Assembly (NCBI GenBank): GCA_913055805.1
Contig: CAJXLF010000005.1
Span: 186,001-250,000 of the forward strand
Source: an uncultured Salinisphaerales bacterium
GTDB taxonomy: Bacteria; Pseudomonadota; Gammaproteobacteria; Nevskiales; CAJXLF01
Direction: 5' to 3'
DNA length: 64,000 nucleotides
Every line of letters begins with the position of its first letter. Within the stretch, counting starts at the first letter, position 1. Positions 48,714 to 51,689 of the stretch are shown here, piece by piece. The notes beneath the pieces are model-generated. The model worked only from the letters and a program-made list of their open reading frames with translations. It was not told the DNA's origin and made no database searches. The position numbers were made by a program, and so were the translations under genes.

Positions 48714-49250
48714 GTGCGAGAACTCCTTTTGTCCCGAAAACTGTTGCAGGCTCTTGGGCTTTTGTTGGTGGCTGCATACATGTCCGCATGGGCAGGCGCG
48801 GCATCCGCTGTGACCGTGGGGCAGGTCGCGCCTGATTTTGAACGCATGCCGCTCAAGGGTGGCCAGCCTGTGAATCTTTCTGACTACCTCGGTCAGGTCA
48901 TTTATCTGGATTTCTGGGCCTCATGGTGCGGTCCCTGCCGGCAGTCGATGCCGTTGATGAACGAGATGTATCAGGATCTGTCCGGGCAGGGTTTCCTGGT
49001 ATTGGCCGTCAATCTGGACGCCTACATAGACAAGGCCCTGAAGTTTCTCAAACAGTATCCGGTTTCCTATCCTGTCGTCCGGGACATCGGCGGGGTTCTG
49101 CCCGAGATTTACGGCTTGCAGGGTATGCCGACGGCCTATCTGATCGACCGAAAGGGAATTGTGCGATATGTTCATCACGGGTTTCGCAGGGGGGATGCAC
49201 CAGACATCCGCGAAGCCGTGGAGACGTTGCTTAGAGAACAGCGTCAATAA
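48714..49250 (+). CDS. TlpA/ResA-like thiol-disulfide protein
   Basis: A 178-residue exported thioredoxin-fold protein. GTG at 48714 gives a full signal peptide or anchor (LLQALGLLLVAAYMSAWAGAASA). The active site is FWASWCGPCRQSMP, and the cis-Pro is in GMPTAYLID. It acts in the periplasm, probably reducing or oxidising Cys of a partner. It is first of a four-gene set with DUF4266, DUF3570 and ApbE; the Cys-rich DUF4266 tail is an obvious candidate substrate. No strong ribosome binding site is seen before the GTG. Confidence 0.87.
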   Translation: MRELLLSRKLLQALGLLLVAAYMSAWAGAASAVTVGQVAPDFERMPLKGGQPVNLSDYLGQVIYLDFWASWCGPCRQSMPLMNEMYQDLSGQGFLVLAVNLDAYIDKALKFLKQYPVSYPVVRDIGGVLPEIYGLQGMPTAYLIDRKGIVRYVHHGFRRGDAPDIREAVETLLREQRQ

Positions 49251-49282
49251 AACGGAATGAGGCGAAAAGCGAGAGGGAGACC

Positions 49283-49519
49283 ATGCGACTGATCCTGAGA
49301 TTCATGGCTTTGACCAGCGGCCTGTTTTTGCTGGGCAGTCTTAACAGTGGCTGTGCCGTCAAGAAAGTGGAAGCCTGGGAACGCGGCGAACTGGCGCGGG
49401 AAGAGATGGCCTGGGAGCCTGATCCGCAAGAAGCGGCCTATCGTTCGCATGTCTATTTCAGTAAGGAAGCCAGTTCCGGGGGTGCATCCGCCGGTGGTGG
49501 TGGCTGCGGCTGTAACTGA
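49283..49519 (+). CDS. DUF4266-type small lipoprotein with Gly/Cys tail
   Basis: A 78-residue lipoprotein. The signal peptide ends in a lipobox (LNSGCAVKK, Cys about 24). The body is acidic (WERGELAREEMAWEPD), and the end is SSGGASAGGGGCGCN. Small lipoproteins of this type ending in CxCN are found with DUF3570 proteins and thioredoxins. Function is not known; the terminal CGC could be a metal-binding or redox site, and the Ser in GGAS is a possible ApbE flavinylation site. It lies 32 bp after the TlpA-like gene and 2 bp before the DUF3570 gene. Confidence 0.8.
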   Translation: MRLILRFMALTSGLFLLGSLNSGCAVKKVEAWERGELAREEMAWEPDPQEAAYRSHVYFSKEASSGGASAGGGGCGCN

Positions 49520-49521
49520 TC

Positions 49522-50730
49522 ATGAGTATGCAAAAAAAGAACAAACCCGCCAGCAAGGCTCTGCTGGCGTTAACGGGTTCGGCGCTTTCGCTCCCGGGCA
49601 TTTCAGGCAAGGCGGCCGCCGCTGATCCGGTGACGGAAACCAGTATCGATTACCAGTACTCGAATTACCGCGAAGAAGATCTGCCCAGCAGCAAACATGC
49701 GGGCGGAGATGTCGAGCGTTATGAGATCGACACCCATCAGTTGCGTGTCGTGCGGCCGTGGGGCGACAGCTATGACGTCACTGTCGACCTGATGTACGAG
49801 ACCATGTCGGGTGCTTCGCCATGGTTCATTATGCCGGGCGCAAATGGCGAGCCCTTGCAGGTGATGAGTGGCGCGACCATCGAGGATGATCGCAGCGACA
49901 TTCTCGCCAAGGTCAGGAAACTGTATGACAATTCAGCGGCGTCATTGTCGCTGGGCTATTCCGATGAGGACGATTACCGGGCCATTAACGTAGGTATCGA
50001 GGGCGAATGGGACCTGGGTTCGAAGCAGCGCACTTTCACTGTTGGTCTGGGTTACAGCGATGATGAACTGGAGCCGACCGATGGAGGCACGACGCTCTAT
50101 CCGAACCGGGTGACCTCTGCCGAAAAGGACAGCCTGAGCGTATACGCCGGGTTTACCCAGGTTCTCAACGCCCGCACCACGGTGCAGAGTACGCTCAGCT
50201 TTACCCGTCATGATGGCTTTTTATCCGATCCGTATAAGGAAGCTTTCGTGGCCGGCAACCGCGTGCAGGATAATCGTCCTGATGGCCGTGATGCGATTGC
50301 CTGGCTGACCCGGCTACGGCATTTCGTGCCTTCGGCGCGGGGTGCGTTGCACGTGGACTATCGCTACTTTGATGATGACTGGGAAATCGAGTCTCACACC
50401 CTGGAACTGGGATGGCACCAGAATCTGCCGGCAGACTGGCAACTATCTCCTTCAGTGCGTTACTACAGCCAGTCACAGGCCTTCTTCTATGCGCCTTACT
50501 ACAACAGCGCACGCAGTGATGGCTTTGCCTCCAGTGACTATCGGTTGTCCCCTTATGGTGCGCTGAGCTACCGCCTGCGGGCGACCAAGAAGATAGGCAC
50601 CTGGGCGTTTCATCTGGGCTGGGAGCGTTATACCAGTGAAGCAGATCTGGCCATCAAGAGCGTCAGGGTCGAAAACCCCGGGCTGGTGGAATTTAACGCC
50701 ATTACCTTCGGTATCAGTCGCCACTTCTAG
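49522..50730 (+). CDS. DUF3570 family protein, probable outer-membrane beta-barrel
   Basis: A 402-residue exported protein. The N-terminus (KALLALTGSALSLPGISGKAAAA) looks like a signal peptide, then the sequence is dominated by alternating beta-strand segments (SIDYQYSNYRE, TVDLMYETMSG, FTVGLGYSDD, LHVDYRYFDDDW) and ends in ISRHF. A terminal Phe is typical of outer-membrane barrels. DUF3570 proteins are uncharacterised. It lies in a cluster with TlpA, DUF4266 and ApbE. Confidence 0.83.
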   Translation: MSMQKKNKPASKALLALTGSALSLPGISGKAAAADPVTETSIDYQYSNYREEDLPSSKHAGGDVERYEIDTHQLRVVRPWGDSYDVTVDLMYETMSGASPWFIMPGANGEPLQVMSGATIEDDRSDILAKVRKLYDNSAASLSLGYSDEDDYRAINVGIEGEWDLGSKQRTFTVGLGYSDDELEPTDGGTTLYPNRVTSAEKDSLSVYAGFTQVLNARTTVQSTLSFTRHDGFLSDPYKEAFVAGNRVQDNRPDGRDAIAWLTRLRHFVPSARGALHVDYRYFDDDWEIESHTLELGWHQNLPADWQLSPSVRYYSQSQAFFYAPYYNSARSDGFASSDYRLSPYGALSYRLRATKKIGTWAFHLGWERYTSEADLAIKSVRVENPGLVEFNAITFGISRHF

Positions 50731-50747
50731 AGCCTGAGCAGAGGGCG

Positions 50748-51689
50748 GTGGTGAGCATGCCCGGTGCTGGCGCATGGCGCTTTCCTTTCAGGGCGATGGG
50801 CGGTCCTTGCGAACTGCGCCTCTACGCCCCTGAGGAGGCAGAAGCCCGGCGGGTAGCTCAGGCGGCACAGGCCGAGGTCATGCGGCTGGAAAGCCATTAC
50901 ACTCGTTACCGCGAAGACAGTATCACCAGTCGTATCAACGCCGCGGCGGGTGGTGAGCCTGTGCCTGTTGATCCGGAAACGGCGAGCCTGCTGGAATATG
51001 CCGATACGGCCCACAAGCAGAGTGGGGGGCTTTTCGATATTACTTCCGGCGTTTTCAGGCGCGTATGGGACTTTAAATCCGGCGTGCTGCCTGATCAGTC
51101 CGAGATCGAAAAGACAAGACAACTGGTGGGCTGGAACAAGGTGGAATGGTCTTCCACACATATCCGTCTGCCTCTGGCCGGCATGCAAATCGACTTCGGC
51201 GGTTTTGTAAAGGAATATGCCGTCGATGCCGTGGCGCGCCTATGTCGCGAGCTGGGTATCGAGCATGGCATGGTGGACCTGGGCGGTGATATTCACATTA
51301 TCGGACCACATCCAGATGGCCAGCCCTGGCAAGTGGGCATAAGAAATCCAAGAGATCCGGAGAAGGCCATTGTCAGCATAGGACTGTTGTCAGGCGGCCT
51401 GGCCAGCAGTGGTGATTATGAACGCTATATGCTGGTCGATGGACAGCGTTACTGTCATATTCTGAATCCCGGAACCGGTTGGCCCGTACAGGGTCTGGCA
51501 TCTGTTAGCGTGGCGGCACCGCTTTGTCTGCTGGCGGGCACGGCGTCCACCGTGGCGATGCTCAAAGGCCGGGAGGAAGGTGTCAGCTGGTTGCGTGAAT
51601 TGGGACTACCCCATTTCTGGGTGGCGACCGATGGGCAGACCGGAGGGGATTACGCGCCCGCCGCAGATGCCGGTCGCAGTATCAGCTAA
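50748..51689 (+). CDS. apbE: ApbE-family FAD:protein FMN transferase
   Basis: A 313-residue ApbE protein. Blocks typical of the family are ITSRINAA, SGGLFDITSGV, IDFGGFVKEYAVDA, DLGGDIHIIG and GLASSGDYERY with HILNPGTGWPV. These form the FAD and Mg site; the enzyme transfers FMN to Ser/Thr of a partner. No signal peptide or lipobox is seen in front of FPFRAMGG, unlike most ApbE, so it may be cytoplasmic or use a missed start. Possible starts are GTG 50748, GTG 50751 and ATG 50757. It closes the cluster with DUF3570. Confidence 0.9.
   Translation: MVSMPGAGAWRFPFRAMGGPCELRLYAPEEAEARRVAQAAQAEVMRLESHYTRYREDSITSRINAAAGGEPVPVDPETASLLEYADTAHKQSGGLFDITSGVFRRVWDFKSGVLPDQSEIEKTRQLVGWNKVEWSSTHIRLPLAGMQIDFGGFVKEYAVDAVARLCRELGIEHGMVDLGGDIHIIGPHPDGQPWQVGIRNPRDPEKAIVSIGLLSGGLASSGDYERYMLVDGQRYCHILNPGTGWPVQGLASVSVAAPLCLLAGTASTVAMLKGREEGVSWLRELGLPHFWVATDGQTGGDYAPAADAGRSIS

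Follow-up and report, generated by a model that had tools for sequence, protein, structure and literature searches.

A DUF3570/DUF4266/thioredoxin/ApbE cluster in an uncultured Salinisphaerales bacterium: a possible outer-membrane flavin relay to surface haem lipoproteins

Which protein receives the flavin when an FMN transferase is encoded together with a thioredoxin, a small lipoprotein and a putative beta-barrel, and where would the electrons of such a set be delivered? The question is raised by four genes at 48714-51689 of a 64,000-nucleotide stretch of DNA (positions 186,001 to 250,000 of contig CAJXLF010000005.1, assembly GCA_913055805.1; hereafter the window) from an uncultured Salinisphaerales bacterium. 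The genes encode a periplasmic thioredoxin, a DUF4266 lipoprotein, a DUF3570 protein and an ApbE. We propose, at a probability of roughly 0.45, that they constitute an outer-membrane flavin relay that feeds electrons to haem enzymes at the cell surface, which share a short N-terminal lipoprotein tag.

The gene set and its flavinylation target

The families and motifs of the window cluster identify it as a member of the DUF3570/DUF4266/thioredoxin/ApbE flavinylation clusters, hundreds of which were already described by Meheust et al. 2021 (PMC8238504). That study counted 285 DsbD-linked clusters, 227 of them including DUF3570, as well as 316 that lack DsbD but contain the other four genes. Moreover, it reported that the DUF3570 protein of Chlorobium luteolum is flavinylated by its own ApbE upon co-expression, on two [ST]GA[ST] motifs, and that flavinylation is abolished only when both Ser sites are mutated. 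The CxC tail of DUF4266 was pointed out there as well, and the function of the system was called uncertain. Our literature search found no further paper naming DUF3570 or DUF4266. A sequence-only reading of the window had called the set uncharacterised, which holds for its physiological role but not for the gene set as such.

The same reading had stated that no flavinylation target lies nearby. This was wrong, because DUF3570 itself carries both motifs, SGAS (residues 96-99) and SGAT (residues 116-119), and thus the target is found inside the cluster. Its view that ApbE attaches FMN to a partner is borne out, with DUF3570 as the substrate, by the C. luteolum experiment (PMC8238504) in combination with the motifs found here. 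Likewise supported are the envelope redox character of the set and the layout of four adjacent genes on one strand: the four open reading frames (ORFs) are all on the plus strand, with gaps of 32, 2 and 17 bp, and coordinates and Pfam assignments agree. The features are collected in Table 1. The best NCBIfam match of the thioredoxin is ResA, under the cut-off. The C-terminal tail of DUF4266, GGGGCGCN, which ends in CGCN, is invariant among the compared sequences (A3). The ApbE domain (PF02424) is clear, with solved ApbEs matching the window protein at E-values down to 5.8e-39. A tRNA-Pro gene precedes the set. DsbD is present in a single copy in the genome, on contig C17, and is not among the ORFs adjoining the cluster in the window.

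Table 1. Coordinates of the four genes and of selected sites within them
Feature	Position	Strand	Basis or remark
ResA/TlpA-like periplasmic thioredoxin with signal peptide	48714..49250	+	GTG start; Pfam AhpC-TSA/Redoxin, AhpC-TSA 6.9e-24
Thioredoxin active site, WCGPC codons	48927..48938	+	
DUF4266 lipoprotein	49283..49519	+	Pfam DUF4266 2.2e-22
DUF4266 lipobox Cys24	49352..49354	+	
DUF4266 tail, CGC codons	49505..49513	+	
DUF3570, 16-strand outer-membrane barrel, branch B, predicted ApbE substrate	49522..50730	+	Pfam 5.2e-66; AlphaFold; tree
DUF3570 leader	49522..49626	+	
Flavinylation site 1, SGAS (Ser99)	49807..49818	+	motif; kept in relatives; tested in C. luteolum (PMC8238504)
Flavinylation site 2, SGAT (Thr119)	49867..49878	+	motif; kept in relatives; PMC8238504
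ApbE (FAD:protein FMN transferase) without signal peptide	50748..51689	+	Pfam ApbE 2.9e-78

The sequence-only reading had proposed to look for co-occurrence of the families and for conserved motifs in the two DUFs, and had taken a chance presence of ApbE beside them as one outcome that would speak against it. Of 100 related genomes, 49 have both DUF3570 and DUF4266 and the remaining 51 have neither (Fisher 1e-29), where it should be noted that the sampled genomes are related, mostly of one order, so that these and the following counts do not represent independent events. All four genes occurred in 59 of the 80 loci that were found in named genomes with DUF4266 as the sole probe. The association is far from a chance one. 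The conserved motifs were found too, as [ST]GA[ST] in DUF3570 and the CGC tail in DUF4266.

The ApbE of the window differs from most of its family. The signal peptide or lipobox that is usual, albeit not universal, in ApbEs is missing: there is no room for it, as what the open frame offers upstream of the domain is short and has no hydrophobic segment. Among 113 DUF3570-linked ApbEs, a clear signal peptide, as called by a hydropathy rule and not by SignalP, was found once (L064), three further scores being unconvincing on reading. The Asp of the canonical AD...T motif is replaced by Gly in 111 of these 113, whereas it is kept in 31 of 40 unlinked ApbEs; the window protein reads AGTAST at this position and KEYAVD for KGYAVD. 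An AM[AG]xPC start and KEYA instead of KGYA complete the signature of the linked ApbEs, which by these features are a distinct type, with possibly a changed metal site in view of the Gly-for-Asp and KEYA-for-KGYA replacements. In locus L064, which has the sole linked ApbE with a clear signal peptide, DUF3570 has lost the [ST]GA[ST] motifs. Lipoprotein-type ApbEs occur in the same genomes, for instance in that of the window (L153). A second ApbE type without evident signal peptide is also common in these genomes (L157-L159, L163-L170, L173) and has a conserved N-terminal segment (Px.LSAA..AGP-like).

Secretion is usual among ApbEs; the soluble fumarate reductase of Klebsiella pneumoniae is served by a cytosolic member (PMC12052999). 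The simplest reading of the signal-less linked type is that DUF3570 would receive its FMN in the cytosol, as unfolded precursor, before export. A maturation by the set in the envelope, as suggested earlier, is doubtful for the FMN step, given that the dedicated enzyme lacks an export signal. The DUF3570 leader is unusually conserved (LxALTxAALALPG-like in 32 of 46 branch-B rows), which would fit recognition of the precursor ahead of export. FMN_bind proteins were considered as other targets of the window ApbE and rejected. The genome encodes three, of which at least one has its own enzyme, since a second, lipoprotein-type ApbE lies close by on contig C2.

No solved homologue of DUF3570 was found by sequence comparison. 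The AlphaFold model (57 sequences; mean pLDDT 91, pTM 0.86) agrees with the earlier assignment as probable outer-membrane beta-barrel: it has sixteen membrane strands by our count, joined by short turns at one face and by long loops at the opposite face, and no periplasmic domain. The best structural matches are all outer-membrane barrels, namely BamA (Z 22.2), PelB (20.8), a PgaA-type secretin (20.5) and BcsC (19.5), a likeness of fold that suggests a location rather than a function. Both flavin sites are in loop 98-119, which would face outward by the rule that the short turns are periplasmic. Conservation among the closest relatives is highest in the outer loops, where the major residue has a mean frequency of 0.69, versus 0.37 in the periplasmic turns (p 1.7e-8), unlike what we would expect for ordinary porins. 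Two Solimonas-type proteins (L049, L051) have a third SGAS, 35 residues ahead of the first flavin site.

Haem lipoproteins beside one branch of DUF3570

On the basis of motifs, match extents and one tree the DUF3570 proteins were assigned to three branches. Branch A has one flavin site (TGASPNGA), branch B two sites 20 residues apart, and branch C two sites about 11 apart. The window protein belongs to branch B, in which its motif pair is conserved. The branches have distinct neighbours. In branch B, 21 of the 28 loci that span 8 kb or more contain genes for RoxA-like, PSD/PSCyt or HXXSHH (DUF1552) proteins, versus none of the 55 loci of branches A (46) and C (9) (Fisher 5e-14). In branch A the neighbours are two-component genes (19/46) or DsbD (7/46), and in branch C large Ig-repeat proteins (7/9) and DsbD (4/9). 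The latter Ig-repeat (HYDIN) proteins were tried as haem clients and rejected, as they mostly lack CxxCH.

In a maximum-likelihood tree of 90 DUF3570 sequences, eight PSD-linked sequences form one group (98/98) and the RoxA-linked ones another (26 rows, 97/92), with two more PSD-linked rows at an unresolved fork. The client type thus follows the DUF3570 tree, as far as one tree and the present neighbours show. The window protein lies inside the RoxA group, although the RoxA-like genes of its genome are on other contigs. The linkage to haem enzymes extends beyond the order (G094, G121, G315) and includes a Methylococcales genome (L129).

In the genome of the window, RoxA-like proteins are encoded by nine ORFs (809-947 aa) that are homologous to RoxA by profile (E 4e-226 or lower). 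All have three CxxCH motifs, two of them in the RoxA part. The ORFs are located on contigs C1, C8 and C9 (L196-L199), six of them close together on C1. At locus L047, a RoxA-like protein aligns with RoxA (4B2N) over some 630 residues (E 6e-123). Close RoxA relatives (profile score >650) are, among the proteins read, found in branch-B genomes and elsewhere only in G016 and G081. These two have a branch-B-type ApbE and no DUF3570 in the piece read, an absence that may be due to assembly gaps. Weak PF21419 matches in genomes without branch B were set aside, being distant from RoxA (score <165).

Unlike RoxA, most of the branch-B RoxA-like proteins (40 of 51 full ORFs) are predicted to be lipidated and have an additional, third CxxCH at the N-terminal end. 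G003 and G012 deviate from this: here the RoxA-like protein has two haem motifs, and the domain otherwise found at its N-terminus is a lipoprotein of its own, with its gene in the DUF3570 locus. Judged from the genes, this arrangement is a fusion or split that links the RoxA-like protein to the DUF3570 locus. The PSD proteins carry an X183-type cytochrome (8q1v, 1.4e-13), the DUF1587-1595 set and, in some, a CBM2. Between the N-terminal haem domain of the RoxA-like proteins and the X183-type cytochrome of the PSD proteins no homology was found (hhalign probability 5%).

These RoxA-like proteins, PSD proteins and separate cytochromes have one short sequence in common, C-[SGA]-G-[DNE]-Y-x-G, directly at or after the lipidated Cys. 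The tag is present on 25 ORFs of the fetched loci, all with CxxCH. As a DNA pattern it gave 52 matches in the 100 genomes, versus 14 for the reversed pattern, and genomes with a match made up 24 of 33 with branch B and 8 of 67 others (Fisher 2e-9). Haem lipoproteins account for 39 of the 52 (35 by position, 4 by reading), 38 in branch-B genomes and one in G081. Eleven matches that were read were set aside as chance, being without signal peptide or CxxCH, and two were left unread. Hence every verified case in the 100 genomes is a haem protein. The PSD-family proteins read in genomes without branch B, such as those with an N-terminal CBM2 in G157 and G224, lack the tag, whereas unlinked PSD proteins of the branch-B genomes G048 and G002 carry it. 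The consensus is incomplete, since some branch-B genomes, including that of the window, have variants such as CGGGDSSGEPHG, without the Tyr. Taken together, the gene neighbourhoods and the tag show a coupling of branch-B DUF3570 to tagged haem lipoproteins of RoxA-like or Cbp2D-like type.

Two observations concern the other branches. At branch C loci L059-L063, L065, L084 and L104, DUF3570 adjoins the large HYDIN-like proteins; those of which the C-terminus was read mostly end in a hydrophobic anchor with Arg behind it, reminiscent of a sorting signal. In addition, six Woeseiaceae-type loci (L074-L076, L105, L138, L150) have a glycerophosphodiester phosphodiesterase gene directly upstream of the branch A set.

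A possible electron route and its alternatives

The proposed relay would operate as follows. Still in the cytosol, the DUF3570 precursor would be loaded with FMN at Ser99 and Thr119 by ApbE. Once exported through Sec, the protein is predicted to fold into the 16-strand barrel, whose outer mouth would have a large loop carrying the two FMNs. DsbD, the gene of which lies away from the cluster, would reduce the periplasmic thioredoxin, which would pass the electrons to the CGC tail of DUF4266 and thereby to the FMNs of the barrel. Finally, the barrel would hand them to surface haem lipoproteins, in the genome of the window presumably the nine tri-haem RoxA-like proteins. That these lipoproteins are at the surface, that they touch the barrel and that electrons run in this direction is inferred. 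RoxA-like enzymes, once oxidised, need an electron to rebind O2. The electron source of RoxA is considered a pending issue (PMC6797691), and our literature search found no link between rubber oxygenases and flavin barrels. Cbp2D is itself a proposed electron donor, namely to lytic polysaccharide monooxygenases (PMC8981238, PMC12542752). More tentative than the relay as a whole is the specific form in which branch-B DUF3570 is an outer-membrane conduit with two covalent flavins, attached in the cytosol by an ApbE without signal peptide, and moves electrons from periplasmic thiols to RoxA-like and Cbp2D-like lipoproteins with the C-x-G-x-Y-x-G tag.

Several points weigh against this proposal. 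Electron transfer is deduced from genes and models, and the sidedness of the flavin loop depends on a topology rule. Seven of the 28 branch-B loci have no haem gene within the stretch read, and the other branches have other neighbours, so that haem clients are not a feature of the whole family. In the window's own genome the RoxA-like genes are unlinked and their tag is the variant without Tyr. Moreover, RoxA keeps its activity when fully oxidised in vitro (PMC6797691).

The main rival, which we regard as rather unlikely, is a role in sorting or assembly, in which the barrel and DUF4266 would bring the tagged haem lipoproteins to the surface or keep them there, and the flavins and thiols would serve a checking or disulfide step. 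The tag would then be the sorting signal. Lipoprotein sorting signals lie right behind the lipidated Cys and so does the tag, which is moreover common to proteins with unrelated domains and tracks the branch-B genomes. Yet sorting would require neither a thioredoxin nor a pair of conserved flavin sites with redox activity, the barrel has no periplasmic domain, and the restriction of the tag to haem proteins points to redox. The absence of any identified iron transporter among the recurrent branch-B neighbours speaks against a reductase of ferric iron or another metal, in which the flavin barrel would reduce extracellular iron for uptake and the haem-enzyme link would be a side effect of a shared lifestyle. 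That idea draws on the 25 DUF3570 clusters with a VIT1 transporter, for some of which Meheust et al. suggested an iron role (PMC8238504); it accounts neither for the haem genes specific to branch B nor for the gene split or the tag, and we consider it quite improbable.

A part in cytochrome maturation, with the thioredoxin and DUF4266 keeping the CxxCH of the haem lipoproteins in the thiol form so that haem can be attached, would account for the CcmG/ResA-like character of the thioredoxin and for the CxxCH motifs of the clients. It would leave the outer-membrane barrel, the FMN and the conserved outer loops without explanation, and most branch C loci are devoid of adjoining haem proteins; we judge it to be very improbable. 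There is equally little chance, in our estimate, that branch-B DUF3570 and the RoxA-like genes are simply kept in one bacterial group by shared ancestry or habitat without working together. Branches A and C occur in the same genomes without such a link, the client type follows the DUF3570 tree, the DUF3570 locus of G003 and G012 contains the haem domain that elsewhere is mostly part of the RoxA-like protein, and the linkage is seen in other families too (G094, G121, G315). In favour of this reading are the predominance of one order in the sample and the unlinked RoxA-like genes of the window's genome.

If the flavin relay is real, no multihaem cytochrome would be needed to carry electrons over the outer membrane, and the relay would be the source, so far missing, from which the RoxA-like and Cbp2D-like enzymes draw their electrons. 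The system also suggests an outer-membrane protein that is flavinylated before its export, and the tag would provide a sequence handle for finding surface haem lipoproteins of this kind in genomes.

Comparison with known systems

The closest system is that of Meheust et al. (PMC8238504), which shares with the window the clustering of the same four families, the two [ST]GA[ST] motifs and the CxC tail of DUF4266. It differs in the position of DsbD, which in the window's genome lies away from the cluster; in the known clusters DsbD is optional. The main text of that paper is silent on the barrel, the signal-less ApbE, the RoxA-like and PSD clients and the lipoprotein tag, while neighbours may be listed uncommented in its supplement. 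Against this background the ApbE type, the barrel model with its outer-face sites, the coupling of branch B to haem enzymes and the shared tag look new.

RoxA of Steroidobacter cummioxidans, a rubber oxygenase (PDB 4B2N), is homologous to the RoxA-like neighbours of the branch-B loci. The latter differ as predicted lipoproteins, mostly with the extra N-terminal CxxCH, and cleavage of polyisoprene by them is not implied. In the same way the PSD neighbours resemble Cbp2D of Cellvibrio japonicus and the TERTU proteins of Teredinibacter in their X183-type cytochrome, the DUF1587-1595 set and, in some, the CBM2, but are tagged lipoproteins. The cytosolic ApbE of K. pneumoniae likewise has no signal peptide (PMC12052999), whereas the substrate in the window system would be an exported outer-membrane protein. 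As an idea, the relay is most similar to the Mtr-type conduit (MtrCAB), in which electrons cross the outer membrane with the help of a beta-barrel toward haem lipoproteins at the surface. However, the barrel of MtrCAB is threaded by a decahaem cytochrome and none of the four window proteins is a multihaem cytochrome by Pfam; here, covalent FMN on the barrel and a chain of thiols would take its place.

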